NCBI GenBank assembly: GCA_028698105.1
Contig: JAQVEB010000006.1
Location: 1 to 32,126 of the forward strand
Length of the DNA stretch: 32,126 nt
Direction of reading: 5' to 3'
From: Petrimonas sp.
Lineage (GTDB): Bacteria; Bacteroidota; Bacteroidia; Bacteroidales; Dysgonomonadaceae
The number at the start of each line of letters is the position of its first letter. The first letter of the stretch is position 1. The notes beneath the pieces are model-generated. The model saw only the letters and a program-made list of their open reading frames with translations, was not told the origin of the DNA and did no database searches. Of this stretch, positions 9,668 to 25,533 are shown one piece after another. The position numbers and the translations under genes were made by a program.

Positions 9668-10789
9668 ATGCTGTTAGATATTCGGAAAAAAGACACGGAC
9701 GAACTGAACAAAACGCCCATTCTGCAACAGACGGCATTTTGGTCGGAAGTAAAGAACAAGCTGGGCGCCGAAACGCTTGCTGTCGGGTTTAAATCGAGGG
9801 AGTCGGATATTTTTCATTCCAGGAGCGATAAATTGCTGGTTTCAGACCTGCTGATCGTCCTGCAACAAATCGACAGGAATCATTCTGTGGCTTATGTGCC
9901 TTACGGCCCTGAACTGGAACCTTCCGATGAGTTTCAAAGCCTTTTTCTGGAAGAATTATCGGAGAGCATTCGCCCGTATTTACCGAATAACTGCATCCTC
10001 ATTCGCTATGATCTTTGTTGGGAATCATACTGGACAAAAGAAGCCGATAATTTTGATGAAAACGGCTTATGGAAAGGCGAACCGGAATTACGCACACAAG
10101 AATTCCGGTTCAATTTCAATACGGAAAACTGGAATTTCAAAAAAGCGCTTTCCAACATACTTCCGGCAAGTACCGTTTATCTGAACCTAAGACAAGACGA
10201 AGAAAGCATCCTGCAACGCATGAAACCGAAAACCCGCTACAACATCCGTCTGGCACAACGTCGCGGCGCAACCGTAAAATCGGCAGGGATGGAGGAAATT
10301 TCCACGTGGTATGAACTCTACAAAGAGACGGCGGCACGAAACGGTATCCTGCTAAACGATATAAAATACTTTGAAGCCGTGCTTTCGGCAAAAGCCGATA
10401 ATACACGTTCACCGGCGCGTGTGCGTCTTTTGATTGCGGAATATAACCAAAAACCGCTCGCAGCCATGTTTCTGGTAATTTCGGGAAACAGGGGTTCGTA
10501 TTTGTATGGCGCCTCTTCGTCGGAAAACCGGAACCTGATGGCTGCATACGCGTTGCAGTGGGAAGCCATCCGGCTATCGAAAGCCGCAGGCTGCACCCAG
10601 TATGATATGTTCGGCATATCGCCCACGCCCGATCCCGAACACCCGATGTACGGGTTGTATAAATTCAAATCGGGTTTCGGCGGCGAAATCTATCACAGCC
10701 TCGGTTGCTGGGATTATCCGCTAGACGAGGAAAAATACACCCTCTTTCGTGCATCGGAAATGCATAGCCAGGGGTATCACGTAAATTAG
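9668..10789 (+). CDS. FemAB/FemX-like peptidoglycan bridge aminoacyltransferase
   Basis: 373 residues, cytoplasmic. The family transfers amino acids from aminoacyl-tRNA to the lipid-linked peptidoglycan stem peptide. Visible marks are QQTAFWSEVK near the N-terminus, VAYVPYGPEL, the conserved MKPKTRYNIRLAQRRG of the second GNAT-like half, and the C-terminal run GSYLYGASSSENRNLMAAYALQWEAI, of which the YGASS and NRNLMA parts are typical, ending KFKSGFGGE. Both GNAT-like halves are present and the length is normal. It has its own promoter. The stop codon overlaps that of the convergent fimbrillin-like gene by three bases. The amino acid transferred cannot be read from sequence. Confidence 0.85.
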   Translation: MLLDIRKKDTDELNKTPILQQTAFWSEVKNKLGAETLAVGFKSRESDIFHSRSDKLLVSDLLIVLQQIDRNHSVAYVPYGPELEPSDEFQSLFLEELSESIRPYLPNNCILIRYDLCWESYWTKEADNFDENGLWKGEPELRTQEFRFNFNTENWNFKKALSNILPASTVYLNLRQDEESILQRMKPKTRYNIRLAQRRGATVKSAGMEEISTWYELYKETAARNGILLNDIKYFEAVLSAKADNTRSPARVRLLIAEYNQKPLAAMFLVISGNRGSYLYGASSSENRNLMAAYALQWEAIRLSKAAGCTQYDMFGISPTPDPEHPMYGLYKFKSGFGGEIYHSLGCWDYPLDEEKYTLFRASEMHSQGYHVN

Positions 10790-12288: not shown

Positions 12289-12834
12289 ATGTCGGACGAG
12301 CAACTCATACAAGAAATAATTTCAGGTAACACCATTGTCTTTAAAGAACTTATGGAGAAATACCAGGGTATGGTGTTCCGAACGACGTTGGGTTTTGTGC
12401 ACTCCAAAGCAGATGCGGAAGACATCACACAGGAAGTTTTCATTAAAATATATCAATCGTTGCCCGATTTCAAGGGCGAAGCCCAATTTGTTACATGGCT
12501 GTACCGGATTACCGTAAACGCGAGTATCAATTTTGTGAATCGAAAAAAGAAGAACCGAGTGGTGGAATCGTTGGAAAACATCTTTCACAAACAGAGTGAG
12601 GAAAAGACGCCGTTGGAACGATTGGAACAATCGGAACGGGACAAGCGGATAAAAAACGCCATCAATTCCCTGCCCGATTCGCAACGAACGGCTTTCATCC
12701 TGAGTAAATACGAAGAATTACCGCAGAAAGAAATTGCCGCCGTCATGAAAAAATCGGAAGGCGCTGTGGAACAACTTTTACAACGTGCAAAAAGCACTCT
12801 GCAAAAAAAATTGGAATACGACCGTAGGAAATAA
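12289..12834 (+). CDS. ECF (RpoE-like) RNA polymerase sigma factor
   Basis: 181 residues. Region 2 is clear: ELMEKYQGMVFRTTLGFV and ADAEDITQEVFIKIYQSL, then FVTWLYRITVNASINFVNRKK. Region 4 follows (LPDSQRTAFILSKYEELPQKEIA, shown here as its key run, then SEGAVEQLLQRAK), the helix-turn-helix that reads the -35 box. An acidic/charged linker joins them. It directs transcription of an envelope-stress type regulon. The next gene is a small single-pass membrane protein, the usual place for its anti-sigma factor. Candidate self-type promoters lie before this gene and at its 3' end. Confidence 0.92.
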   Translation: MSDEQLIQEIISGNTIVFKELMEKYQGMVFRTTLGFVHSKADAEDITQEVFIKIYQSLPDFKGEAQFVTWLYRITVNASINFVNRKKKNRVVESLENIFHKQSEEKTPLERLEQSERDKRIKNAINSLPDSQRTAFILSKYEELPQKEIAAVMKKSEGAVEQLLQRAKSTLQKKLEYDRRK

Positions 12835-12851
12835 TCAATACAAATGTCTAA
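12822..12851 (+). promoter_or_regulatory. Second copy of the putative ECF promoter, before the anti-sigma gene
   Basis: CCGTAGGAAA (12822-12831), 14 bases, GTCTAA (12846-12851). The -35 part overlaps the last codons of the sigma gene and the -10 part ends 19 bases before the ATG at 12871. It would let the sigma factor boost its antagonist and the periplasmic genes independently. Confidence 0.65.
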
Positions 12852-12870
12852 CCTATAAAACGAACAAAAA

Positions 12871-13164
12871 ATGAAAACGGAACAGTACATAGACGATTTC
12901 ATCAAACGCGAAAAGCAAACGGAACATAATCCGTTCCTGAGTACGCGGGTGATGGCCGAAATCGAAAAAAGGCAACAACCGGAGCGTCGCAGAACGCCCG
13001 TTTGGCAAACTGTGGTTGTGGCTGCCAGCCTTGCTGCCGTTGCATTTTTAGGCGTAAGCATCGGTAACAGTTACCAGAAAAGCGTTTCTCACGAGTTTAC
13101 GATGAACATAAACGACAGTCAGATCGAGAATTTAGGCTATTATAATTTCGACGATTATGAATAA
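12871..13164 (+). CDS. Small membrane protein, probable anti-sigma factor
   Basis: 97 residues. The N-terminal ~45 residues are charged and helical (YIDDFIKREKQTEHNPFLSTRVMAEIEK) and would lie in the cytoplasm; a single hydrophobic segment follows (TVVVAASLAAVAFLGVSIG, residues ~47-65), with a short ~30-residue periplasmic tail rich in acidic residues. This topology and its position right after an ECF sigma gene fit a minimal anti-sigma factor. I see no ZAS zinc motif (no HxxxCxxC), so the contact mode would differ from that class. Its stop overlaps the next start by 8 bases (ATGAATAA), showing translational coupling to the Spy-like gene. Confidence 0.65.
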   Translation: MKTEQYIDDFIKREKQTEHNPFLSTRVMAEIEKRQQPERRRTPVWQTVVVAASLAAVAFLGVSIGNSYQKSVSHEFTMNINDSQIENLGYYNFDDYE

Positions 13165-13732
13165 GACGAATAAAATAATGATGTGGGTAATTGCACTGCT
13201 TGTGGTGCTGAACCTGACGACCATCGGAACTATCGTCTATCACAATCAGCAGGAAAAAGACGATAACACAGCAATTGTTATTGACGAAGGCCAGCCCCCG
13301 CTCACCGGAAGGTATTTTCGGCAAACGCTGGGATTCGACAATGATCAGATGGATGTTTTTCGCGCAGCGAACCGGGAATTTCAACCCCGTGCCAACCTGC
13401 TGATTTACGAAATGGATTCGCTGAAAAACGAAATGTTCATGGAGTTGAACAAACCGAAACCCGACGAAACAAAATTAAATGCGTTATCGGATCACATCGG
13501 AAACCATCACGCAGAACTGAAAAAGCTTACAAACGATTTCTACCTGAAGATAAAATCGGCGTGCAACGACGCGCAGTGCGCTCAATTAGAAAGAGCATTC
13601 CTACCGTTGTATCGCGATGAAACGGTGAATGCCCGTCGCGGATACGGATACGGATATAACCGAACCGACAGTCTCGGTATGGGACGCGGATACCGGCATC
13701 GCTACGGACGCGATTGGAACGAAACCAGATAA
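13157..13732 (+). CDS. Spy/CpxP-like periplasmic metal-sensor or chaperone protein
   Basis: 191 residues. An N-terminal membrane anchor (MMWVIALLVVLNLTTIGTIVY) precedes a periplasmic helical domain: YFRQTLGFDNDQMDVFRAANREF (key part FRQTLGF...Q), a long helix with MDSLKNEMFMELN, DHIGNHHAELKKLTNDFY, and FLPLYRDE. This is the layout of the CpxP/Spy and heavy-metal resistance (CnrX-like) superfamily. The tail is Gly/Tyr/Arg-rich (RRGYGYGYNR). There are two Cys in SACNDAQCAQ and a His pair that could ligate metal. It is coupled to the preceding anti-sigma candidate and may feed an envelope or metal signal to it. Confidence 0.75.
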   Translation: MNKTNKIMMWVIALLVVLNLTTIGTIVYHNQQEKDDNTAIVIDEGQPPLTGRYFRQTLGFDNDQMDVFRAANREFQPRANLLIYEMDSLKNEMFMELNKPKPDETKLNALSDHIGNHHAELKKLTNDFYLKIKSACNDAQCAQLERAFLPLYRDETVNARRGYGYGYNRTDSLGMGRGYRHRYGRDWNETR

Positions 13733-13762
13733 ATTAAATAAACAATTAAAAATAAGATTATT

Positions 13763-14326
13763 ATGAAAACAAAAGTATTTATCACTGCAATGGCGCTGGT
13801 TGCCACCATAGGATTAGCAACCGCCCAAAATCAAAATCAGGCAGCAAAGGAAACGGCGAAAACCGCTCAAACCGGACCTGCATTTGTGGACAAAAACAAC
13901 AACGGCGTTTGCGATAATTTCGAGAACGGAACACCCGGAAATCCGAATGCCAACGGCAAACAACGACTGCTCGACGGTAGCGGCCGCGGACAAGGCAAAG
14001 GCCAGGGATTACGCAACGGCAGAGGACAAGGACGCTTCTTTGTGGATGCCGATAAAGATGGCGTGTGCGACAATTTCGAAAACGGAACTCCCCGTGGAGG
14101 ACGCGGACAAGCCTATGGCAACGGACTGCGTAACGGCAGAGGTGGTGGAGCGAATTTCGTAGATGCCGACAAAGACGGCATTTGTGACAACTTCGAAAAC
14201 GGAACACCGCGCCAGGGACGCGGTACAGGGAAAGGCACCGGCCTTCGGAATGGAAAAGGCAGTGCGGTAAATTTTGTGGACGCCAATAAAAACGGTATTT
14301 GCGACCGTAGGGAAACCACAAAATAA
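13763..14326 (+). CDS. Secreted protein with four EF-hand-like Ca-binding loops
   Basis: 187 residues. A signal peptide (MKTKVFITAMALVATIGLATA) is followed by four 12-residue loops that keep the EF-hand ligand positions 1, 3, 5, 9 and 12: DKNNNGVCDNFE (43-54), DADKDGVCDNFE (95-106), DADKDGICDNFE (134-145) and DANKNGICDRRE (173-184). Position 6 is Gly in all. Three are followed by NGTP. Each loop carries a Cys at position 8, unusual for EF hands. Linkers are Gly/Arg-rich (GRGQGKGQGLRNGRGQGR). Helices flanking classical EF hands are not obvious, so the loops may be dockerin- or thrombospondin-like. It follows the Spy-like gene by 30 bases and ends at a strong terminator. Metal binding is inferred. 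Confidence 0.75.
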   Translation: MKTKVFITAMALVATIGLATAQNQNQAAKETAKTAQTGPAFVDKNNNGVCDNFENGTPGNPNANGKQRLLDGSGRGQGKGQGLRNGRGQGRFFVDADKDGVCDNFENGTPRGGRGQAYGNGLRNGRGGGANFVDADKDGICDNFENGTPRQGRGTGKGTGLRNGKGSAVNFVDANKNGICDRRETTK

Positions 14327-14342
14327 CCACGCACCAACCACA

Positions 14343-14371
14343 AAAAAATGGGGATTCGCTCCCCATTTTTT
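14343..14371 (+). terminator. Strong terminator after the EF-hand-repeat gene
   Basis: AAAAAATGGGGA (14343-14354) and TCCCCATTTTTT (14360-14371) form a perfect 12-bp stem with a 5-base loop TTCGC, ending in a T run. It separates the sigma/Spy/EF-hand unit from the DUF2202 genes. Confidence 0.85.
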
Positions 14372-14424
14372 CTTACAAAACGCTTATCTCATTAACTTAA
14401 TCACAGTAAACCAACTTTTTCATT

Positions 14425-15117
14425 ATGAAAACTTATCAAAAAATTTCCGTCATGGCATTTCTTGCAATTTTGCTTTTCGGTTGTGAAGCGAACAGCGTAA
14501 ATTCACCGGAAGAAAATGCCGAACAAGCCGCATTGATAAACGCAGTTTCAACTACGCGACTTGATGCAACACTGGCTGCAACCACCGATTCGCTTTGTTT
14601 GTTGACAAATACGCAACTCGCGCCACTCACCGAAAGTGAAATAAACAGCATCCTGTACATGCGCGAAGAAGAAAAATTAGCCAATAATGTGTATGTGTAT
14701 TTTAACGAAAAATTCGCCAGACCCGTGTTCAGCAACATCTCCAAAAGCGAGATAGCACACGGAAAAGCTATCGCCTGGCTTATTAATCTCTACAAAATTG
14801 AGACTCCCGCCGAAACGGTACCGGGGGTATTTAACATCGAAGAATTGCAAAATTTATACACAAAGCTTACAACCGAAGCCCTTACAGTTGTAGATGCTTA
14901 CAAAGCCGGCGCTTTTATCGAAGAACACGATATTATTGATCTTCAAAGAGAAATAGCCGAAACAGAAAACCCGTTTATCAAAAGAATTTACGGTAATCTA
15001 CTCCGTGCTTCACAGTTTCATTTGAAAGCCTTTGTCGCAAATCTCAAATTCAACGGTATTGCATATCAACCTCAATTATTGAGCAACGATGATTTCAACG
15101 CTATCATAAACACATAA
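14425..15117 (+). CDS. DUF2202 ferritin-like lipoprotein (copy 1)
   Basis: 230 residues. The signal sequence MKTYQKISVMAFLAILLFGC contains a lipobox (LFGC), so it is probably a lipoprotein. After a ~45-residue linker the DUF2202 core begins: SEINSILYMREEEKLANNVY, SEIAHGKAIAWL, FIEEHDIIDLQ and ASQFHLKAFVANL. These Glu/His positions resemble the diiron ligands of the ferritin-like four-helix bundle. At the last motif it has Gln (ASQFHL) where copy 2 has Glu (ASENHL), so one metal ligand may be altered. The neighbour is a paralogue. A role in periplasmic iron/oxygen handling is inferred from the fold; the family has no established function that I know. Confidence 0.82.
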   Translation: MKTYQKISVMAFLAILLFGCEANSVNSPEENAEQAALINAVSTTRLDATLAATTDSLCLLTNTQLAPLTESEINSILYMREEEKLANNVYVYFNEKFARPVFSNISKSEIAHGKAIAWLINLYKIETPAETVPGVFNIEELQNLYTKLTTEALTVVDAYKAGAFIEEHDIIDLQREIAETENPFIKRIYGNLLRASQFHLKAFVANLKFNGIAYQPQLLSNDDFNAIINT

Positions 15118-15121
15118 AAAA

Positions 15122-15730
15122 ATGAAAACAAAATATTTATTCATTCTGATCGCAGCCGGGGCAATACTTTTGTTGCCCCAGGCTGCCGATGGGGCTAAAA
15201 CCACACAGAATAAGACGATGGGAATGCCGGCTTCAACGCAAAATCTGACAAAGGCCGACATCCAAAGCATTGAGTACATGCGAGAAGAAGAAAAACTTGC
15301 CCACGACGTTTATACGTTTTACGCCCGGCAGTATAGCATCCCTATCTTCCGAAATATTTCGCGTAGCGAAACGGTGCACCAGAACGCCATGATGTGGCTT
15401 GTGGATACGTATGGGTTAAAAGACCTCGCGAAAGCGGAAGGCGTGTTTACCAATCGTGAGTTACAGAAAATGTACACCGAGCTCACCAAAGGCACAACGC
15501 TCATCGAGGCGCTGCAAGCCGGAGCGTTGATCGAAGAACAGGATATCGAAGACCTGCAATCGCACTTGCAGAAAACCGACAATCCCGATATCCAACGGAT
15601 TTATTCCAACCTCTTGCGCGCTTCGGAGAACCATTTGCGGGCGTTTGTACGAAATTTATCGCGCAGAGGCATTGATTATCAACCAAAAGTATTAAATTTG
15701 TCACAGTTCTCCGATATCGTACAACCGTAA
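15122..15730 (+). CDS. DUF2202 ferritin-like protein (copy 2)
   Basis: 202 residues. The signal peptide MKTKYLFILIAAGAILLLPQ lacks a lipobox Cys, so this copy is likely soluble in the periplasm, unlike copy 1. The core motifs are SIEYMREEEKLAHDVYTFYA, SETVHQNAMMWLVD, LIEEQDIEDLQ and ASENHLRAFVRNL, which contain the expected Glu/His pairs of a ferritin-like metal site. It starts 4 bases after copy 1 stops, so the two are co-translated. Only 34 bases separate its stop from the PqqD-like gene, so the ferritin-like pair may share a transcript with the following modification cluster. Confidence 0.85.
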   Translation: MKTKYLFILIAAGAILLLPQAADGAKTTQNKTMGMPASTQNLTKADIQSIEYMREEEKLAHDVYTFYARQYSIPIFRNISRSETVHQNAMMWLVDTYGLKDLAKAEGVFTNRELQKMYTELTKGTTLIEALQAGALIEEQDIEDLQSHLQKTDNPDIQRIYSNLLRASENHLRAFVRNLSRRGIDYQPKVLNLSQFSDIVQP

Positions 15731-15764: not shown

Positions 15765-16010
15765 ATGAACATTAGAAAAAACATAGCCATCAGCGAAAAC
15801 GGATTTATCTTTAATCCACTTACGGGCGACAGTTTCAGTGTAAACCAAACCGGCGTTTTCGTTCTTCAACAATTAAAAAACGGTGAAAGTAACGAAACCG
15901 TTTTGAAAGCACTTCAGGATGAATACGAACTCGATGCCCACACGGCCGAGAAAGACCTCAACGATTTTCTGGATATGTTAAAAAGCTACCAACTATCCGA
16001 AAATGAATAA
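15765..16010 (+). CDS. PqqD-family (RiPP recognition element-like) small protein
   Basis: 81 residues. The sequence reads like PqqD: strands ISENGFIFNPLTGDSFSVNQTG, here the FNPLTGDSFSVNQTG part being the most typical, then helix VFVLQQLKNGESNETVLKALQ, and a winged helix with ELDAHTAEKDLNDFLDMLKSY. PqqD and its relatives (the RRE fold) bind leader peptides and present them to modifying enzymes; stand-alone PqqD-like proteins of this kind occur next to kinases, nucleotidyltransferases or ligases. Its last codons overlap the ATP-grasp start by 8 bases (ATGAATAA), so the two are translationally coupled. No radical SAM gene is nearby, so PQQ synthesis is excluded. Confidence 0.8.
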   Translation: MNIRKNIAISENGFIFNPLTGDSFSVNQTGVFVLQQLKNGESNETVLKALQDEYELDAHTAEKDLNDFLDMLKSYQLSENE

Positions 16011-17058
16011 GCGAAAAATTACCGTAGCGGTCACTGGGCTCAACAACATTGACAGCCCCGGGCCGGGAATTCCCGTTATTCGTGCATTGAAAGACAGTTC
16101 GGCGTTCGATGTGCGCATTGTCGGCTTATCGTACGAAACGCTGGAACCGGGAATTTATATGCACGAATTGGTGGACAAAGTCTATCAGCTGCCTTTGCCC
16201 ACCGCGGGCTCAGCCATGCTCAAAGAGCGGCTGCAATACATCGTGAGCCAGGAAAAAATTGACGTGCTCATCCCGAATTTTGATGCCGAATTGCACAATT
16301 TCATCAAAATTCAACACGAATTAAAATCGGAGCTTGGGATAGCCACTTTCCTGCCATCGCATGAGCAATTTGAAGAGCGCCACAAATCGGAACTGAATAA
16401 ATTCGGCGAAAAATACGATATAAAAGTACCGGAAAGCCATATCATTAATCAGGTTTCGGAAATTAAAAAGCTGGAAGATGACCTCGATTATCCCATGGTG
16501 ATCAAAGGGCGATACTACGACGCCTACATTGCTTCGAACTACGAGCAGGCCAGCTCTTATTTTTACAAAATCGTCGCCAAATGGGGATATCCCATTATCG
16601 TCCAGGAGTTTGTAACCGGAACGGAAGTAAACGTTACCGCCATCGGCGACGGAAAAGGCCGATGCATCGGCGCGGTGACGATGCGAAAATTGTACATCAC
16701 GGACAAGGGAAAAGCATGGTCGGGCGTTTCGTTGGAAGACGATAAACTCATGGAGATTTCTCGTCGCGTAATTGAGAACAGCCGATGGAAAGGCGGTTGC
16801 GAACTGGAGTTTATTAAAACAAAAAAAGACGAATATTATCTGCTGGAAATGAATCCCCGTTTTCCCGCCTGGATGTACCTTGCCATCGGTTGCGGCCAAA
16901 ATCACGCCGAAGCTTTGGTGAAAATGGCGTTGGGCGAAGACGTAAAGCCGTTTGCCGAATACAAAAGCGGCAAAATGTTTATCCGCTACGCGTACGATAT
17001 GATCGTGGATATATCGGAATTTCAGCAGATTTCCACAACCGGGGAATATGCTCGATAA
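16003..17058 (+). CDS. ATP-grasp ligase (carbamoyl-phosphate-synthase-like)
   Basis: 351 residues, cytoplasmic. The N-terminal part is a pre-ATP-grasp Rossmann domain (KITVAVTGLNNIDSPGPGIP). The ATP-grasp part shows MVIKGRYYDA (Lys168 as nucleotide-binding Lys), IIVQEFVTGTEVNVTAIGDG with the hinge Glu202, and LLEMNPRFPAWMYLA with the Mg-binding Glu282 and Asn284. Such enzymes activate a carboxylate as acyl phosphate and couple it to an amine or thiol. Substrates cannot be read directly. Coupling to a PqqD-like protein and a following PLP decarboxylase suggests that an amino acid is loaded onto a carrier or peptide. It differs from the graspetide MvdD-type ligases and I see no graspetide core peptide. 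Confidence 0.85.
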   Translation: MNKRKITVAVTGLNNIDSPGPGIPVIRALKDSSAFDVRIVGLSYETLEPGIYMHELVDKVYQLPLPTAGSAMLKERLQYIVSQEKIDVLIPNFDAELHNFIKIQHELKSELGIATFLPSHEQFEERHKSELNKFGEKYDIKVPESHIINQVSEIKKLEDDLDYPMVIKGRYYDAYIASNYEQASSYFYKIVAKWGYPIIVQEFVTGTEVNVTAIGDGKGRCIGAVTMRKLYITDKGKAWSGVSLEDDKLMEISRRVIENSRWKGGCELEFIKTKKDEYYLLEMNPRFPAWMYLAIGCGQNHAEALVKMALGEDVKPFAEYKSGKMFIRYAYDMIVDISEFQQISTTGEYAR

Positions 17059-17133
17059 CCGTCTGAAATATGCGTCAGACGGACTTCAAGCCGTCGGACG
17101 CTCATAATAACTAAATAAATCCCCCTACAGGGG
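17059..17133 (+). promoter_or_regulatory. Alternative hairpins between ATP-grasp and decarboxylase genes
   Basis: CCGTCTGA (17059-17066) pairs with TCAGACGG (17075-17082). The same right arm extended to 17074-17082 can instead pair with CCGTCGGAC (17091-17099) with one mismatch, so the two stems exclude each other. A third stem, CCCC-TACA-GGGG (17122-17133), ends 11 bases before the next ATG. This could tune expression inside the operon, or be a repeat insertion. Confidence 0.4.
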
Positions 17134-17144
17134 TCAAAGGCAAT

Positions 17145-18500
17145 ATGAAACCAACCTACGAACGTCCTGTGATTCAGAAACTGAACACAGGCCTGATGAA
17201 TAAATTCGGCAGCAGAACCGAATACATACCTGTGAAACAAATTGATGGCGTGGCAGTTGCCGGGTTAATGGATGAATACGGCTCGCCGCTCTTCGTAATC
17301 AGCGAAAAAACCATCCGCCAAACCTATCAAAAAGCACAAAAAGCCTTTAAAATGCGCTATCCGAAAGTGCAATTCGCCTGGAGCTACAAAACCAACTATC
17401 TGGATGCCGTTTGCAACGTTTTCCATCAGGAAGGAAGCTGGGCGGAAGTCGTATCGGGTTTTGAATACCAAAAAGCCCTTCGCAACGGCGTTCCGGGCAA
17501 TCTGATCATTTTCAACGGCCCTGATAAATCGGCCGATGACCTGAAAATAGCCGTGGAAAACCGTTCGCTCATCCACATTGATCATTTCGACGAGCTCTAT
17601 TCGCTTATCGAGATTTTGGAAGGAACTTCCCAAAAAGCGCGTGTTGCCATTCGCGTAAATATGGACACCGGCGTTTATCCGCAGTGGGACAGGTTCGGCT
17701 TCAACTACGAAAGCGGGCAGGCGTGGAATGCGATCATGAAGATCATTACGCAGCCAAACCTTCAGTTGGAAGGATTACACACCCACATCGGCACCTACAT
17801 GCTCACCGCCAACGCTTATGCCGTTGCGGCGCGCAAACTGTGCGAACTGGCGCAAAATACGGCAAACAAAACCGGCGTAAAGATAAAATACATTGATATG
17901 GGTGGCGGATTCTGTTCGTCCAACACACTCAAAGGTTCGTATCTGCAAGGTGCTGATGTTATTCCTACGTTCGACGATTATGCCGAAGCCATCACCGGAA
18001 CCATTTTGCAATTCGGCTTTAAACCCGATGAATTGCCCTTGCTGATCCTCGAAACCGGACGCGCATTGATTGACGAAGCGGGTTATCTGCTCGGTTCCGT
18101 GCTTGCAACCAAACGCCTGGCCGACGGCCGTCGGGCTACCGTGCTCGATATCGGGGTAAATATCATGTTCACATCGTTTTGGTACAATCACAAAGTATCG
18201 CCAGCGCAGGATTTCACACAGCATGCCGAAGAAATGGCGCTGTACGGGCCGCTTTGCATGAACATTGACTGCCTGCGCGAAAGCGTTAGCTTACCGCTGT
18301 TAAAAAAGGACGACCGCGTGGTGGTGCACGAAGTGGGCGCTTACAACATGACACAATGGATGCAATTCATTACGCTACGTCCCAATGTGGTCATGATTGA
18401 TACCACGGGGAAAGTGCATCTTATTCGCAAAAGCGAAACCGTGGAATCCATTGTACAACAGGAGGTTACACCGGAACATCTGAAAGGGTTTAAACTTTGA
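17145..18500 (+). CDS. Fold-type III PLP decarboxylase (LysA/BtrK-like) with N-terminal extension
   Basis: 451 residues. Residues ~33-451 follow the diaminopimelate/ornithine decarboxylase plan: IDGVAVAGLMDEYGSPLFV, FAWSYKTNY with the PLP Lys82, HTHIGTYM (His214), DMGGGFCS, LETGRALIDEAG, YGPLCMNID with the partner-subunit Cys371 and Asp375, and HEVGAYNMTQW. Ordinary LysA proteins begin near IDG; here about 32 residues precede it (MKPTYERPVIQKLNTGLMNK...), with Tyr5-x-x-Pro8-x-Ile10, similar to leader motifs bound by RRE proteins. The neighbouring ligase and PqqD-like gene recall the butirosin pathway, where an ATP-grasp enzyme loads glutamate on a carrier and a relative of LysA decarboxylates it. 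Free amino acid decarboxylation is the alternative. Residue numbers were counted by hand. Confidence 0.85.
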   Translation: MKPTYERPVIQKLNTGLMNKFGSRTEYIPVKQIDGVAVAGLMDEYGSPLFVISEKTIRQTYQKAQKAFKMRYPKVQFAWSYKTNYLDAVCNVFHQEGSWAEVVSGFEYQKALRNGVPGNLIIFNGPDKSADDLKIAVENRSLIHIDHFDELYSLIEILEGTSQKARVAIRVNMDTGVYPQWDRFGFNYESGQAWNAIMKIITQPNLQLEGLHTHIGTYMLTANAYAVAARKLCELAQNTANKTGVKIKYIDMGGGFCSSNTLKGSYLQGADVIPTFDDYAEAITGTILQFGFKPDELPLLILETGRALIDEAGYLLGSVLATKRLADGRRATVLDIGVNIMFTSFWYNHKVSPAQDFTQHAEEMALYGPLCMNIDCLRESVSLPLLKKDDRVVVHEVGAYNMTQWMQFITLRPNVVMIDTTGKVHLIRKSETVESIVQQEVTPEHLKGFKL

Positions 18501-18600
18501 AAATAGCAACGCAATTTACCGACATCAGGGCAGCGTTGAATAATGCAACGCAAAGTCCTGTTCCGTATGTCTTTGTTCTTTGTCCCGAAATCATAAACAA

Positions 18601-20772
18601 ATGAAACAAAGCCTCAAATCATACGCGTTGATGTATCTCGATGGCACGCTGAACAGCTATGCCATGATATTTTTTTCGCAAAGCAGGTGGTTAGCGATCA
18701 TCTTGCTGGTGCTTAGCATGCTGGACATCCGGCTGGGATTGGGCGGACTTTCGGCTGTGGTTCTGACGAACATCATCGCGCACGGGCTCGGATTTTCGAA
18801 GAAAAGGATCAAGAGCGGATTGTACGGATTTAACGCCGTTTTTGTCGGGTTGAGTCTGGTTTACAAATTTTACGTGAACGGCTCGTTCATTATTCTTTTT
18901 GTTTTATCGGTTATTCTGGTATTCATGTTCACGGTATGGCTCGAATCGGTTTTTGCGAAGCACGATATTCCCGTGCTTACTCTGCCGTTTGTTTTCACGT
19001 TGTTCATCGTTGATCTTTCGGTAAAATCGTTCACGAACATTGAGTACATTATTCCGTTCGACCGTTTCACCATCGTGTTGGCCGGGCAAATGAAAGTACC
19101 GTGGTACACTTTCGTCCACTCACTCGATAATGCGCACTTGCCGCCCATGTTGTTTTATTATTTTAAAACATTGGCATCCATTTTCTTTACCGACAGCGTG
19201 TTAGTCGGCATCATCATAGCCGTTGCATTGCTTTTTCACTCACGCATCAAATCCACGGTAGCATTTTTTGGATTTTTCTTTGCATTTATCATCAGTAAAT
19301 TGCTTGGCGTGGATATCGCAGAACTCACGCAGGATCTGGCTGGCGTTAACTACATTTTCTGGGGAATGGCAATCGGAAGCTTCTTTATCATCCCCAACAT
19401 CTACAGCTACATACTGGTCATTGGCCTCACGCCCGCCCTGTTTCTGTTTTATGCCAGCGTGGAGAGTTTGATATCGGATACCGGGCTATCTTCTTACACA
19501 TTATCATTCAGTCTTTTATCCATTCTCGTACTGTTCATCCTCAAACAACGCAGCTTTAGCCGGTTCTTTATTTTCCCGTATATTCAATATTATAATCCCG
19601 AGAAAACGGTATATAAAAACGTGAATTACATGCAGCGTTTCGAACAAAACATGCTGTTTAAAATGCAATTGCCTTTTTTGGGAGAATGGCGTGTAACGCA
19701 GGGTTACAACGGTACAATAACCCACCTAGGCGCATGGGGAAAAGCGTTGGATTTTATGATCACGGACGAAGAAGGAAAAACGTGTTTCGGCCGGTGTGCG
19801 CAGAAAGAAGATTTTTACTGTTACAACAAACCGGTGTTGGCTCCGGCCGACGGTTATGTGTACATGATCAGCAACATTACCGAAGACAATGAAATAAATA
19901 ATGTAAACACGAAAAAGAATTGGGGTAATACGATCATTATCAATCATTTGAACGGGTTATACTCGCAGCTGAGCCACCTTAAAAAAGACAGTTTTAACGT
20001 GAGCATCGGCGATTACGTAACAAAAGGAACCGTACTTGCCGTATGCGGCAATTCGGGACGTTCGCCGGAGCCGCACCTCCATTTTCAGGTGCAGTTGTCG
20101 CCCGAAATCGGGTCGGCAACACATGCGTACCCCATGGGCTATTTCTTTGAAAAAACAGCCGGTAAACCGCTCTTGCACATCGGCGAGGTCCCGAAACAGG
20201 ACACTACGATCTTCAACGTAGTTCCTTCGTTGCTGGCGCAAGATGCTTTCGAAGGCAAACCGGGCCGGTTGCTGAAAGTTACCTACGACAACGAAAATTA
20301 TCCCTGGACAATTGCTACCGACGAATACAACAAAACCTATATCCGTTGCGAAAAATCGAAAGCCGTGGCGTACGTGGAAAACGATGGCACCATGTTCTAT
20401 TTTACCGATTTTGAAGGAAGAAAATCATCGCCGTTGTATTTGTTTTACCGTAGTTGCTTTAAATTATTGCTGTCCAACGAAAAAGAGATCTCCGTTACCG
20501 ATAAAATACCGCTTACCAAGGAACACCCCTTCGGAACGCGTTGGTTTCAGGATTTTTTGGCGCCTTTTGTTATTTTCACAACCATAAATTACCGTTCGCA
20601 ATTAACGGAATCGGATCATATTTTTTATCCTGAAAAAATTGTATATCAAAGCATTATAGACGCTAAGTCGTTCAATATAAAAATGCCGGTGAATGAATCA
20701 ACTATCACGGTAATAAAAAACAGAATGGAAATTAACACTAAAAAACATGTCTTATGTATCGAATGGGTATAA
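18601..20772 (+). CDS. Urea-transporter-like membrane protein fused to an M23 peptidase domain
   Basis: 723 residues from ATG 18601 (MKQSLKSYALMYLDGTLNSY); a TTG at 18580 would add seven residues. Residues ~1-320 are ~10 hydrophobic segments with urea-transporter marks: LDGTLNSYAMIFFSQSRWLA and the GLYGFNAVFVGL signature. The soluble part from ~360 is a LytM/M23 domain: WRVTQGYNGTITHLGAWGKA, LDF (zinc His and Asp), APADGYVYMISN, WGNTIIINHLNGLYSQLSHL and PHLHFQV with the HxH pair. Zinc ligands appear complete, though the first HxGxD motif is stretched by an insertion. A C-terminal ~200-residue region is of unknown type. It may join small-amide transport to cell-wall peptide cleavage or binding. 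The end overlaps the next gene by 19 bases. Confidence 0.85.
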   Translation: MKQSLKSYALMYLDGTLNSYAMIFFSQSRWLAIILLVLSMLDIRLGLGGLSAVVLTNIIAHGLGFSKKRIKSGLYGFNAVFVGLSLVYKFYVNGSFIILFVLSVILVFMFTVWLESVFAKHDIPVLTLPFVFTLFIVDLSVKSFTNIEYIIPFDRFTIVLAGQMKVPWYTFVHSLDNAHLPPMLFYYFKTLASIFFTDSVLVGIIIAVALLFHSRIKSTVAFFGFFFAFIISKLLGVDIAELTQDLAGVNYIFWGMAIGSFFIIPNIYSYILVIGLTPALFLFYASVESLISDTGLSSYTLSFSLLSILVLFILKQRSFSRFFIFPYIQYYNPEKTVYKNVNYMQRFEQNMLFKMQLPFLGEWRVTQGYNGTITHLGAWGKALDFMITDEEGKTCFGRCAQKEDFYCYNKPVLAPADGYVYMISNITEDNEINNVNTKKNWGNTIIINHLNGLYSQLSHLKKDSFNVSIGDYVTKGTVLAVCGNSGRSPEPHLHFQVQLSPEIGSATHAYPMGYFFEKTAGKPLLHIGEVPKQDTTIFNVVPSLLAQDAFEGKPGRLLKVTYDNENYPWTIATDEYNKTYIRCEKSKAVAYVENDGTMFYFTDFEGRKSSPLYLFYRSCFKLLLSNEKEISVTDKIPLTKEHPFGTRWFQDFLAPFVIFTTINYRSQLTESDHIFYPEKIVYQSIIDAKSFNIKMPVNESTITVIKNRMEINTKKHVLCIEWV

Positions 20773-22139
20773 CATTCGCAACGGTAATGATGATGTGGAC
20801 GTTTGCGCTACAGGCGCAACAAAGCCCGGAAGCAACCCGCATTGACAGCATTACCTATCAGCAATACCTGCAAAAGGATTATAAAAATCTGATTGAGACC
20901 AGCAAACAGGCGCAGGCGCAAAACATTGATTTTTATTATCTGAATTACCGCACCGCTATTGCTTATTATGAACTGAAAAATTATGCCAAAGCGGCGGAAT
21001 TTTACAAAAAAACGCTTGCAGAAACTTCCACCGAGCCGGCTCTGTTGGAAAGCCTGTATTACGCCTACCTGCTGAGCGGCCAGAAAAACAATGCCGATAT
21101 ACTTGCCAAATCGCTCGCGCCACACACGCAGGCCGCTATCGGATATTCGCCTTCGGCGATGGATTTTATTGCGCTCTCAGGCGGTTATCTTACGAACGAC
21201 AACAAACCCGATCTGCGTTCAAATTTTGTGGGCTACGATTCGCTGAACCAGTTTCAGGATATGGTATTCACTACGCTGGGCGTTGGGTTTAAACTCTCCG
21301 ACAAGGCCAAGCTAAAACTCGGATATCAACTGTATAACACCAAGTTTCAGCGGTCAAACAGCACGGGATTGGTAAAAGAAGAGAGATTGTCTCAACATCA
21401 ATTGATCGCCGGATTTGATTTTTTCTCGGATAATAACGTTACCTGGGGATTTGCCGGCGCGTATTACAACATCGAAAAGATTGATAAAGCGATCCCGTAC
21501 ACTACGACCGCTGTTGCATCTGCCACTATGGGAACGCGTGCCGGCGGATACGGCCCGGGTGGAGGAGGCGGGGGCCCTGGCGGAGGCGGTTTTTATTATC
21601 CTTCCATATATTACACCGCATCAACCGGAAACACGATTTCGGCTTTCTCCATGCTGGCATTTCTTAACAAACGCTCTGCGTACACCTTGCCCGAAATTGC
21701 CGTGGCTTATTCCAATTTCGGCGGCGGACATCAGTATCAGGCAAAAGGATCGCTCACTTATTATCCGCTGGGAAACCTCGATTTTTACGGAACAACCGCT
21801 CTTGCAGCCATCTACAACCAAAACGCCTGGACAGGCACACAAGTTGTTTTTTCTCAAAATTTGGGTGTAAAATTAGCCAAATCGCTGTGGCTGGATGGGG
21901 CGTTCAGCATCGGGAATCATCAAAATTACATTACCGGGCACTCATTTTTAGTTTACGACACGTACGATCCCGTTAAAGCCCTTGCGGGTGCTTCCCTCTC
22001 CTATTTTATCAAAAAAACCATGTTATCGGCCGGATATCAATGGCAACAAAGGGAAGGATACGCCTATTCGTCAACCAATTACACAACATACAAATATAAT
22101 AATCATCTTTTAAATCTCGCGTTACAATGGAACTTTTAA
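20754..22139 (+). CDS. TPR-like repeat plus outer-membrane beta-barrel protein
   Basis: 461 residues. Start ATG 20754, or 20763; either leaves a signal peptide ending FALQAQQ. Residues ~25-125 hold TPR-like helices (YLNYRTAIAYYELKNYAKAAEFYKKTL, key run AIAYYELKNYAKAAEFY, and ALLESLYYAYLLSGQKNNA). From ~145 the sequence alternates in beta-strand fashion (LGVGFKLSDKAKLKLGYQLY, GWQW-type pairs) and ends LNLALQWNF, the aromatic C-terminus of outer-membrane barrels. One loop contains a glycine run, GPGGGGGGPGGGG. It is overlapped on both sides (19 bases with the transporter/M23 gene, 13 bases with the next TPR gene), so all three are made together. It may link the periplasm to the surface. Confidence 0.75.
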   Translation: MYRMGITFATVMMMWTFALQAQQSPEATRIDSITYQQYLQKDYKNLIETSKQAQAQNIDFYYLNYRTAIAYYELKNYAKAAEFYKKTLAETSTEPALLESLYYAYLLSGQKNNADILAKSLAPHTQAAIGYSPSAMDFIALSGGYLTNDNKPDLRSNFVGYDSLNQFQDMVFTTLGVGFKLSDKAKLKLGYQLYNTKFQRSNSTGLVKEERLSQHQLIAGFDFFSDNNVTWGFAGAYYNIEKIDKAIPYTTTAVASATMGTRAGGYGPGGGGGGPGGGGFYYPSIYYTASTGNTISAFSMLAFLNKRSAYTLPEIAVAYSNFGGGHQYQAKGSLTYYPLGNLDFYGTTALAAIYNQNAWTGTQVVFSQNLGVKLAKSLWLDGAFSIGNHQNYITGHSFLVYDTYDPVKALAGASLSYFIKKTMLSAGYQWQQREGYAYSSTNYTTYKYNNHLLNLALQWNF

Positions 22140-22741
22140 TTAAAAAAACGGTACTCACCTTTCTGCTGGCGGCGGGCTTAATTACCGCATCGGCACAGGT
22201 GAATCCTTCGCAGGTTTTTGCAAACAGTTATCAGTACGAGTCGTCAGGCGATTACCAGAAAGCCATCAGCGAATTAAACAGCCTGAATGGATTCGATTAT
22301 CATAAATTTCTGAGAATGGGTTGGTTGTATTATCTTTCCAAAGATTACGAAAGCAGCAAGAAATTTTACCAAAAAGCGGTGGACATAGCTCCTAAAGCGG
22401 TTGAAGCGCTGCTCGGCCTGTGCTATCCGCTGGAAGCGCAGAAAAAAACCGATGAATTGGAAGCGGTTTACAAAAAAATTCTTTTGCTGGACAAGGTGAA
22501 TTCGCGGGTAAATTACGCGCTGGGAAACATTTATTATTATCGGAAAAACTTTATGGAAGCCGAGAAATATTTCGATTTGGTGCAGCAGATGTATCCGTTC
22601 GATCACTACTCCACGCTGATGAGCGCCTGGACAAAATATTTCCTCGGGAAAAAGAACGATGCGCAACGGCTTTTCAACACGGTTCTCATTATCTCGCCAA
22701 CGGATCAATCGGCAAAGGATGGGTTGAATTTGGTGAAATAA
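22127..22741 (+). CDS. Exported TPR-repeat protein
   Basis: 204 residues. Signal peptide MELLIKKTVLTFLLAAGLITASAQ is followed by four or five TPR units: SYQYESSGDYQKAISELNSL, MGWLYYLSKDYESSKKFYQK, LLGLCYPLEAQKKTDELEAV, YALGNIYYYRKNFMEAEKYF and SAWTKYFLGKKNDAQRLFNT. TPR arrays mediate protein contacts. The gene starts inside the end of the barrel gene, so it probably forms a complex with that barrel-TPR protein and the M23 fusion. It is the last gene of the run that starts with the PqqD-like gene. No enzymatic motif is seen. Confidence 0.8.
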   Translation: MELLIKKTVLTFLLAAGLITASAQVNPSQVFANSYQYESSGDYQKAISELNSLNGFDYHKFLRMGWLYYLSKDYESSKKFYQKAVDIAPKAVEALLGLCYPLEAQKKTDELEAVYKKILLLDKVNSRVNYALGNIYYYRKNFMEAEKYFDLVQQMYPFDHYSTLMSAWTKYFLGKKNDAQRLFNTVLIISPTDQSAKDGLNLVK

Positions 22742-23501: not shown

Positions 23502-24758
23502 ATGATTATTAAACATACATATTCCGAAAAAGAAAATATCGTATTTTCGAAGGAAGTAGAAGATATCATTTCCAACACCCGACCTCAATGGATCAGGTCC
23601 AAAGAGGATATTTGGATGGAAATGGAAGCAAAACTGGATGCTAACCCAACCGGGAAGAAAGTTCAGCCCGTCCGGTATTTCCAACTGTTGAAATACGCGG
23701 CAGTAGCCTCGATCGCTTTATTGGTTTCATTTGCTGTTACAGCAACATTATATACAAAGAATGTGAAAACCGTGATAGCTGAAAAGAGTTTTCTTTTGCC
23801 GGACAATTCCAAGGTGGTGTTGCACGCCAATTCGTCGCTGAGCTACAAACCTTTGCTGTGGAAGTTCAGCCGGACAACAAAGCTAAACGGCGAAGCTTAT
23901 TTTGAAGTGGAAAGCGGAAGTAGGTTCGAAGTTGTTTCTGAAAAGGCCAAAACGGTGGTTTTAGGAACACGATTTTTGGTAACGGCTCGCGAAAATGAAT
24001 ACCAGGTGAATTGCGAACATGGAAAAGTGATGCTTGTGGAGTTTGCCGAAAAAAACGAAGTTGTGATAACGACCGGTCAGAAAGCAAGGCTGAAGGCGGA
24101 TAAACAGTTCGAAATTATTTCTCAGCATCACAACAATCCTACTGAGGTAACTCCGGAAGTAACTGTAGCCGTAGAAGAAAAAGATATGAACATCACGGAA
24201 GAAAAACCTGCCGTCATTCCAAAAGACGAAATGAAACCCGAACCGGAAAGGCAGAGAACGATGAGTCAGGAGAAAATTCAGTTGCAGGAGCCAACTCCGT
24301 TAAAAGTAGAACCGAATTTGTCGAATGAGCTAAAGGAAAATCATTTAAACGAAATTAAAAACTTACTAGACGAAGCGGAGACAAAACTGCAAACCGAAAA
24401 TCAGGAACGCACGAATCTTCAAAATCGCCAGGGGGAAACAGCAGACAATAATGCGGAACCGGCTAAAAACCGATTCAGAAACTCACTGACCCAAAAGCAA
24501 CTCGACATTCTGGAAGACAAAACGTTGAGCAGAACTGAAAGACAGAAAGCGTTCATTAAATCCCTTACAAACGAACAAAGACAATTGCTCAGGGATCAAA
24601 ACACTGAAATAGAATTCGGCAAAGATGTTCACAAAGACGGAATAAAAGAGAACGTGAAAGATGAACAACGGAATCGTAAAAACCAGTTGTCCAACACTCC
24701 GGTTGAAAAAGAAGGTGGCGGAATGAGAAGAGAAGGCGGAAAACAATCTCCAAGATAA
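23502..24758 (+). CDS. FecR-type anti-sigma factor with unusual C-terminal tail
   Basis: 418 residues. The N-terminal ~60 residues are cytoplasmic; one membrane segment lies at ~63-86 (LLKYAAVASIALLVSFAVTA); the FecR domain spans ~97-200 (FLLPDNSKVVLHANSSLSY, LNGEAYFEVES, FEVVSEKAKTVVLGTRF). Past it comes a long, charged Glu/Pro/Lys linker, a helical stretch, and a segment at 325-364 (FRNSLTQKQLDILEDKTLSR...) that closely resembles residues 108-147 of the secreted protein encoded next. The tail ends Gly/Arg-rich. FecR proteins hold the cognate sigma factor at the membrane until a periplasmic signal arrives. The extra tail makes it ~80-100 residues longer than usual and may sense or imitate that secreted protein. 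Confidence 0.85.
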   Translation: MIIKHTYSEKENIVFSKEVEDIISNTRPQWIRSKEDIWMEMEAKLDANPTGKKVQPVRYFQLLKYAAVASIALLVSFAVTATLYTKNVKTVIAEKSFLLPDNSKVVLHANSSLSYKPLLWKFSRTTKLNGEAYFEVESGSRFEVVSEKAKTVVLGTRFLVTARENEYQVNCEHGKVMLVEFAEKNEVVITTGQKARLKADKQFEIISQHHNNPTEVTPEVTVAVEEKDMNITEEKPAVIPKDEMKPEPERQRTMSQEKIQLQEPTPLKVEPNLSNELKENHLNEIKNLLDEAETKLQTENQERTNLQNRQGETADNNAEPAKNRFRNSLTQKQLDILEDKTLSRTERQKAFIKSLTNEQRQLLRDQNTEIEFGKDVHKDGIKENVKDEQRNRKNQLSNTPVEKEGGGMRREGGKQSPR

Positions 24759-24891: not shown

Positions 24892-25533
24892 ATGAAAACA
24901 AAATCAATCTTCGGAGTTTTATTTGTAGCTTTTCTTTTTTTAGCCGCAAATACATTTGCTCAAACCACACCTATAAGAGCAAAAGACCAAACCAAAATTG
25001 AAAAAAAGGATCAATTGAAAGATCAGACCAAAGATCAAACTAAAGATCAACTGAAAGATCAGTTGAAAGACCATACAAGAGACCGCATTCACGATCCGCT
25101 TGAAGATGCTGACCAATTGCAACAGAGGGATCGGGATCGGTTACATTCAGCAACAGGGAATCAGGTAAATGCTGATATTCAGAGCATGGTAAATCAGAGA
25201 AATCGCGAACAATTCAAGAACTCTCTTACCCCCGAACAAATTGAATTGCTTCAAAACCAAACGATGACCAGAGCTGAAAAAAGAGAAGCCTTTATGAATT
25301 CTCTGTCGGAAGAACAACGCAATATGCTGAAATTGCAGTATAGAGATCAAAACCGGTTGAACAAAGGAGTTGCAACGCAAACCAAAGAACAGGTTAAGGA
25401 ACAACAACGCAACCAAATCAGAGAACACCAGAATATATCTACCGGCAGCCAGCAACAGCAAATGCAGCAACAAATGCAGCAGCTTGGCGAAGGTGGTGGA
25501 AAAGGTGGCGGCATGAAAGGTGGCGGCAAATAA
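24892..25533 (+). CDS. Secreted Lys/Asp/Gln-rich low-complexity protein
   Basis: 213 residues. Signal peptide MKTKSIFGVLFVAFLFLAANTFA, then a tetrapeptide repeat of the KDQL/KDQT type (residues ~39-60), a helical charged part, a conserved-looking segment at 108-147 (FKNSLTPEQIELLQNQTMTR...) shared with the FecR-like anti-sigma, a Gln-rich stretch (QQQQMQQQMQQ) and a Gly/Lys tail GGGKGGGMKGGGK. No enzyme motif. The shared segment has an SLTPEQ...SLSEEQR helix-helix pattern reminiscent of Spy-like proteins but I cannot assign it. It has a putative ECF promoter and ends at a perfect terminator, so it is probably a single-gene target of the preceding sigma factor. Confidence 0.8.
   Translation: MKTKSIFGVLFVAFLFLAANTFAQTTPIRAKDQTKIEKKDQLKDQTKDQTKDQLKDQLKDHTRDRIHDPLEDADQLQQRDRDRLHSATGNQVNADIQSMVNQRNREQFKNSLTPEQIELLQNQTMTRAEKREAFMNSLSEEQRNMLKLQYRDQNRLNKGVATQTKEQVKEQQRNQIREHQNISTGSQQQQMQQQMQQLGEGGGKGGGMKGGGK

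Follow-up and report, generated by a model that had tools for sequence, protein, structure and literature searches.

A co-inherited six-gene operon of Bacteroidota that may make and export an amide- or peptide-linked amine

Six genes, which we name A to F, lie in one run on the + strand of a 32,126-nt window of Petrimonas sp. (contig JAQVEB010000006.1; "the window" is the whole stretch of DNA analyzed). They encode, in order, a small PqqD-like protein, an ATP-grasp ligase, a decarboxylase dependent on pyridoxal 5′-phosphate (PLP), a urea transporter (UT) fused to an M23 peptidase domain, and two exported proteins with tetratricopeptide repeats (TPRs), the first of which ends in an outer-membrane barrel signal (Table 1). 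A preliminary description of this DNA had reported six genes in the same orientation that overlap at three junctions, by 8, 19, and 13 bases. This is indeed so, the junctions being A/B, D/E, and E/F, respectively; gaps of 86 and 79 bases separate B from C and C from D. For D, the TTG at 18580 is a less likely start than an ATG further downstream, at about 18601. The six-gene set described at that time stands as a unit, but its left boundary was probably drawn too narrowly, as six more + strand genes run into A with gaps under 100 bases.

Table 1. Positions of the six-gene run and its upstream cassette in the window, followed by two genes from other loci (L numbers denote loci)
Feature	Position	Strand	Product	Basis or occurrence
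A	15765..16010	+	PqqD-like protein, RiPP recognition element (RRE) fold, 81 aa	Pfam PqqD 1.1e-12
B	16003..17058	+	ATP-grasp ligase, 351 aa	Pfam ATPgrasp_Ter, CPSase_L_D2
C	17145..18500	+	alanine-racemase-fold PLP decarboxylase, 451 aa	Pfam PF02784/PF00278 (Orn/DAP/Arg decarboxylase N, C domains)
D	18580..20772	+	urea transporter fused to Peptidase_M23	PF03253 (1.4e-44), PF01551 (6.8e-16)
E	20754..22139	+	exported protein with weak TPR and C-terminal outer-membrane beta-barrel signal	signal peptide; ends in LQWNF
F	22127..22741	+	exported periplasmic TPR protein, 204 aa	TPR families; signal peptide visible in sequence
ECF (extracytoplasmic function) sigma factor	12289..12834	+		sequence; homologues upstream of operon in about 20 relatives
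Anti-sigma-like membrane protein	12871..13164	+		weak NCBIfam anti-sigma match, 1.6e-4; position kept in 14 loci
Metal_resist sensor	13157..13732	+	CnrR/Spy-like	PF13801, 30.4 bits vs cut-off 29.2; 17 loci
Exported EF-hand-like repeat protein	13763..14326	+		sequence; weak EF-hand match only; homologues in 10 loci
Two exported DUF2202 proteins	14425-15117, 15122-15730	+	ferritin-like	Pfam 1.4e-38, 4.7e-43
Surface protein with type IX secretion system (T9SS) tail	L087:6917-7762 and nine other loci		contains FG-GAP-like region	
Streptomyces zaomyceticus fusion gene	L100:5998-8274		distant B-C relative	

By searching a species-level genome collection with B, we recovered 61 loci; matching was by short exact peptides, which favors close relatives, and the result speaks for Bacteroidota only. 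A and B were present in all 61 loci and C in 59. Of the two loci without C, one lies on a contig that ends inside B (L072), and in the other B is cut short and unrelated genes come next (L069), which is either a broken copy or an assembly fault. D was found with both domains in 47/61 loci, and for nearly all the rest the contig stops before D is reached. E and F follow downstream in the same order in most loci, with four (L032, L039, L044, and L046) instead having an F-like TPR gene upstream of A and E not always detected. The loci span Petrimonas, Proteiniphilum, Chitinophagales, Sphingobacteriales, Algoriphagus, Hymenobacter, Mucilaginibacter, a Flavobacteriales bin, and an Ignavibacteria bin; another locus, labelled Melainabacteria (L044), may be mis-binned. 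In three loci (L051, L052, and L078), a gene resembling initiation factor 2B (sugar-phosphate isomerase type) is inserted between C and D. The junctions recur in most loci at about −8 bases for A/B, about −16 for D/E, and −13 for E/F. Since both gene order and these short overlaps recur across the phylum, the arrangement is not due to chance.

A similar picture emerged from 396 Bacteroidota genomes that were drawn evenly and independently of this search. C, counted at E values below 1e-100, occurred in 34 of these genomes (about 9%), 28 of them outside the class to which the window belongs. A full-length D profile matched the identical 34 genomes, in each case beside C, and was absent from the other 362; elsewhere in the draw, the M23 part alone was matched in 13 further genomes. 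Pairwise evolutionary distances of all six proteins were also correlated (r 0.72–0.88), with maxima of no more than 0.24 after shuffling. Given this obligate linkage and the correlated distances, the six-gene set has been inherited together. By the preliminary description's own account, its proposal would fall if the genes were conserved together in close strains alone; both samples show them together far more widely.

The AlphaFold model of B (predicted local distance difference test score, pLDDT, 88.7) was matched by Foldseek to 2pn1, the L-amino-acid ligases RizA (4wd3) and 3vot, and PylC (4ffl), with biotin carboxylase and carbamoyl phosphate synthetase (CPS) also among the top matches. 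Judging from this model, B is a predicted carboxylate-amine ligase of the CPS/biotin-carboxylase/PylC/L-amino-acid-ligase type. A RimK/MvdD-like graspetide macrocyclase was considered as well and rejected by fold class, as the top Foldseek matches differ. C has both Pfam domains of the alanine-racemase-fold decarboxylases, and its PLP lysine (K82) and catalytic cysteine (C371) are invariant. Its best NCBIfam match is lysA (7.6e-66), yet at 222.3 bits it falls below the TIGR01048 cut-off of 297.9, and against the FslC/FigC family (NF041039) it reaches 216.9 bits with a cut-off of 500. The nearest solved structure is N-citrylornithine decarboxylase (7kh2, 6.2e-55); C also aligns with BtrK (2j66, 3.8e-27).

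The active-site pocket of C is distinctive. In FigC, the pocket is formed by T327, T330, Y331, M355, H357, R387, and N389, among which H357, R387, and N389 contact citrate; in diaminopimelate (DAP) decarboxylase, this part is played by R343 and by an acidic residue next to the catalytic cysteine (PMC7857480). By alignment, the equivalent residues in C are T343, W346, Y347, M372, I374, Q404, and M406, all of them invariant in 50 relatives except M406, which is kept in 49/50. The CES motif of LysA is thus replaced by C371-M372-N373 (CMN) and its LIRPxLY motif by FTSFWY, both invariant or nearly so in the same relatives. Because this pocket is unlike those of LysA and FslC, DAP, a free basic amino acid, and a citryl conjugate are all unlikely substrates. 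Conservation of the pocket instead points to one substrate that is likely shared across the phylum.

These findings bear on two alternative roles for C. That C is simply the organism's DAP decarboxylase, with unrelated neighbors, is hardly credible: its best family match is to lysA, but it is obligately linked to those neighbors, and an ordinary LysA with GPICESSD and LIRPALY is encoded elsewhere in the genome (contig C178). A LysA-type role, which would have undone the pathway proposed in the preliminary description, is rejected as far as sequence goes by the pocket, the TIGR01048 cut-off, and this second gene. A third member of the decarboxylase family, on contig C330, is a separate sequence. 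We also think it quite improbable that the operon makes a metal-binding small molecule (a siderophore, metallophore, or detoxifying ligand), in which case C would act on an acyl-amino acid intermediate, as do the decarboxylases FslC, SbnH, and AcsE. The structural kinship with N-citrylornithine decarboxylase favors this idea, as do the Metal_resist/ECF sigma cassette and ferritin-like DUF2202 genes upstream of the run. However, the citrate-contacting residues H357, R387, and N389 of FigC correspond to I374, Q404, and M406 in C, and both a synthetase of the nonribosomal-peptide-synthetase-independent siderophore (NIS) type and a conserved TonB receptor are absent at the loci. We also know of no UT-type channel that exports metallophores. 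The AraC regulator present at some loci has an N-terminus that is HMA-like by eye, but its CxxC motif is mostly lost in relatives, and a metal-sensing role for it was rejected on this ground.

Further evidence on B and C comes from outside the phylum. A 758-aa Streptomyces zaomyceticus plasmid protein consists of a B relative (29% identity, 2e-33) fused to a decarboxylase that shares the Cys-Met motif of C, and such a fusion of homologues supports the two steps being consecutive. The preliminary description had proposed ligation followed by decarboxylation, and this order is supported by both the invariant, non-LysA pocket and the Streptomyces fusion. It is also favored by analogy with the best solved relative of C, which acts on a conjugate. 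In Streptomyces zaomyceticus, the fusion gene adjoins genes for a 195-aa protein and a fatty acid desaturase.

Protein A has the PqqD/RRE fold (PF05402, 48.6 bits vs a cut-off of 23.4) and is the sole match to this family in the genome. In 58 relatives, the hairpin GFIFNPxTGDSFSxN is strictly conserved, and the C-terminus varies in both sequence and length. The preliminary description had correctly noted that no acyl carrier protein is present, and we found no carrier-like gene among the conserved neighbors of the operon. Its further suggestion, that the PqqD-like protein takes the place of the carrier, is not supported: with a variable C-terminus, the idea is left without a conserved attachment site, and what is kept is a peptide-binding fold. 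A LysW-type amino-group carrier was likewise rejected, as the 58 relatives have no conserved C-terminal Glu for ligation.

Protein D combines a urea-transporter fold (about residues 13–322), an M23 domain (about residues 365–510), and a C-terminal beta domain. The preliminary description had recognized a transporter-M23 fusion, and the transporter can now be named: the membrane part scores 152.9 bits against PF03253 (cut-off 25), as compared to 98.5 bits against TIGR03441, which is below the cut-off of 274.6. The AlphaFold model (pLDDT 90.1) was matched by Foldseek to 3k3g/3k3f and to LytM domains, with a TM-score of 0.79 (by target length) between the UT part and 3k3g. The zinc-binding and catalytic residues H382, D391, H466, H499, and H501 are invariant in 43 relatives, so the M23 domain is predicted to be catalytically complete.

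On which side of the membrane this peptidase would work is less straightforward. In urea transporter structures, both termini are cytoplasmic, and in D both flanks are positively charged, with mean counts of Lys+Arg vs Asp+Glu of 2.3/0.8 at the N-terminus and 2.9/0.7 in the segment after the last helix. From this homology and these flanks, the M23 domain would face the cytoplasm. The best-matching stand-alone M23 relatives are a counterpoint, as they carry signal peptides or lipoprotein signals. Two candidate markers of topology were set aside. A C414–C489 disulfide is uninformative: both cysteines occur in 38/43 relatives and one only in 4, and most of the exported stand-alone relatives shown carry just one. 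A split between the UT and M23 parts in a single-contig genome (L080:10944-13198) looks like a frameshift in the linker and was rejected as evidence.

The fold of A and the placement of the M23 domain raise the prospect, a rather unlikely one, that the operon belongs to a pathway for a ribosomally synthesized and post-translationally modified peptide (RiPP). In such a pathway, A would bind the leader of a precursor whose gene lies elsewhere, B and C would modify the peptide, and a cytoplasmic M23 domain would cut the leader before export by D, in the manner of peptidase-containing bacteriocin exporters. The strictly conserved hairpin of A, the cytoplasmic location suggested by the positive flanks and UT homology, and the complete set of catalytic M23 residues are all compatible with this. 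Yet a comparison of small open reading frames (ORFs) across divergent loci gave no precursor peptide conserved near the operon, only close-relative or antisense clusters, so that a RiPP precursor, if any, would be unlinked. B is also not of the RimK-like graspetide type, the M23 relatives are exported, and alanine-racemase-fold decarboxylases acting on intact peptides are rare. The MccE decarboxylase, for instance, has a peptidyl nucleotide as its substrate (PMC7857480).

Proteins E and F carry signal peptides, and relatives of E end in a C-terminal WxF-type outer-membrane barrel signature. Other classes have, in place of E, a TPR gene and a separate barrel gene. One such barrel family is related to the E barrel by profile comparison (probability 95%), and a third barrel family has the motif FLVYNxxD in common with it. 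A TPR protein and an outer-membrane barrel therefore appear to be regular parts of the system, even when split or rearranged. The preliminary description had D, E, and F bring the product to the envelope. This is secure for E and F, which are exported, and less so for the M23 domain of D, which by homology would lie in the cytoplasm, while its stand-alone relatives are exported. It is distinctly unlikely that the system modifies the cell envelope, with its product attached to peptidoglycan, lipopolysaccharide, or surface proteins and a periplasmic M23 domain acting on peptidoglycan. E and F are envelope proteins, the M23 relatives are secreted or are exported as lipoproteins, and 10 loci of another class have a T9SS-tail surface protein linked to the operon, all of which would suit such a role. 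Still, most Bacteroidia loci lack the T9SS-tail protein, and UT homology puts the M23 domain in the cytoplasm.

We consider it somewhat less than an even bet (roughly 45%) that the operon suffices on its own to make and export a small amide or peptide-linked amine. The observations beneath this proposal are gene content and order, obligate co-occurrence, the folds, the M23 residues, and the pocket of C. From them, we infer an order of reactions, a role for A, a direction of transport, a side for the M23 domain, and a kind of product. B would activate a carboxylate and couple it with an amino acid or a short peptide, with A presenting the substrate to B and/or C. The conjugate, rather than a free amino acid, would then lose its alpha-carboxyl group to C. 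The urea-channel fold of D would allow passage through the inner membrane, and its M23 domain would add a zinc peptidase step, with the product, the product's leader, or the wall as the target. Finally, periplasmic F and the TPR/barrel protein E would carry the product across the outer membrane or fix it there. A more specific form of this proposal, a new class of natural-product system, seems rather unlikely: an RRE-guided ATP-grasp enzyme and a dedicated decarboxylase would assemble a peptidyl amine on a carrier peptide, and the urea-channel-peptidase fusion would release and export it to a TPR/barrel conduit. Such a fusion would be a channel-type counterpart of ATP-binding cassette exporters with a peptidase domain.

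Several results weigh against a biosynthesis-and-export system. The small-ORF comparison across divergent loci yielded no precursor for A. The known position of UT termini and the positive flanks of D would place the M23 domain in the cytoplasm, away from the periplasm, while its stand-alone relatives are exported. Moreover, the pores of urea channels conduct small neutral molecules, so that export of an amine conjugate via D is not obvious; D could equally well import a small amide or urea.

Comparison with known systems shows partial likenesses. In the butirosin side-chain module, the ATP-grasp ligase BtrJ and the decarboxylase BtrK act in succession, with BtrI as the carrier. Our operon similarly pairs an ATP-grasp ligase with an alanine-racemase-fold decarboxylase, but it has no acyl carrier protein, butirosin has no transport module, and BtrK is a distant relative of C. 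With FslC/FigC and SbnH, C shares the Cys-Met replacement of the acidic residue after the catalytic cysteine and a specificity helix that keeps Thr and Tyr. It differs from FslC/FigC in having Ile, Gln, and Met for the citrate-binding His, Arg, and Asn, and in its partner, which is an ATP-grasp enzyme where theirs is an NIS synthetase. By analogy, the chemistry would resemble butirosin or NIS-siderophore side-chain logic, though the system is a member of neither. Graspetide and other RRE-containing RiPP pathways (PqqD, lasso B1) likewise have a small PqqD-fold protein beside an ATP-grasp enzyme, but B is of another type, no precursor was found near the operon, and such a decarboxylase is foreign to those pathways. 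The membrane part of D shares its fold and the signature motifs of both halves with SLC14-type urea transporters (DvUT, UT-B); among the genomes drawn, however, D is always fused to M23 and always in the operon, and to our knowledge its family has no link to urea. Likened by description only, the polymer exporters BcsC, PgaA, and AlgK-AlgE also use a TPR protein and a TPR/outer-membrane barrel as their final conduit, but the operon's barrel protein is much shorter, there is no synthase, and TPR and barrel are separable. An anti-phage defense system was rejected, as PADLOC gave no family for any of the six proteins.

In line with the preliminary description, which knew of no pathway with this set, searches of the open-access literature (most subscription journals being outside this scope) brought up no description of the gene set, of a urea transporter with M23, or of PqqD with an ATP-grasp enzyme and decarboxylase. 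What seems new is the system as a whole, every domain family being already known. One invariant pocket, six co-inherited proteins, and presence in about 9% of genomes together indicate that the operon probably makes one specific, useful, undescribed compound. The obligate fusion of a urea channel to a zinc peptidase is unexplained for both families. Cultured hosts carrying the system include Petrimonas, Algoriphagus, Mucilaginibacter, Hymenobacter, and Flavihumibacter.

Upstream of A, the cassette at 12289-15730 begins with an ECF sigma factor that probably regulates the run. Regulators vary by locus: about 20 have the sigma cassette, 10 have the AraC regulator, and others have a two-component pair. 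Together with the T9SS-tail protein, these regulators hint that the trigger may be metal or envelope stress. The DUF2202 genes are also upstream in three Chitinophagales-type loci, and the cassette likewise precedes the operon in the Chitinophagales-type loci L063, L067, and L072. The protein encoded at 13763-14326 contains four FVDxxxxGxCDxxE loops (in the form FVDxNxNGICDxxE) with Gly/Arg-rich linkers between them, making a secreted calcium-binding repeat protein possible.

Elsewhere in the window, a FemAB-family gene (9668-10789) adjoins a TonB-dependent receptor gene (7259-9577) upstream of the cassette. Beyond the run, a FecR-like gene (23502-24758) and an exported gene (24892-25533) lie downstream of a second ECF sigma factor (23010). 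Their products have the C-terminal motif NSLTxxQxxxLxxxTxxRxExxxAFxxSLxxEQRxxL in common, as well as Gln/Lys-rich repeats.

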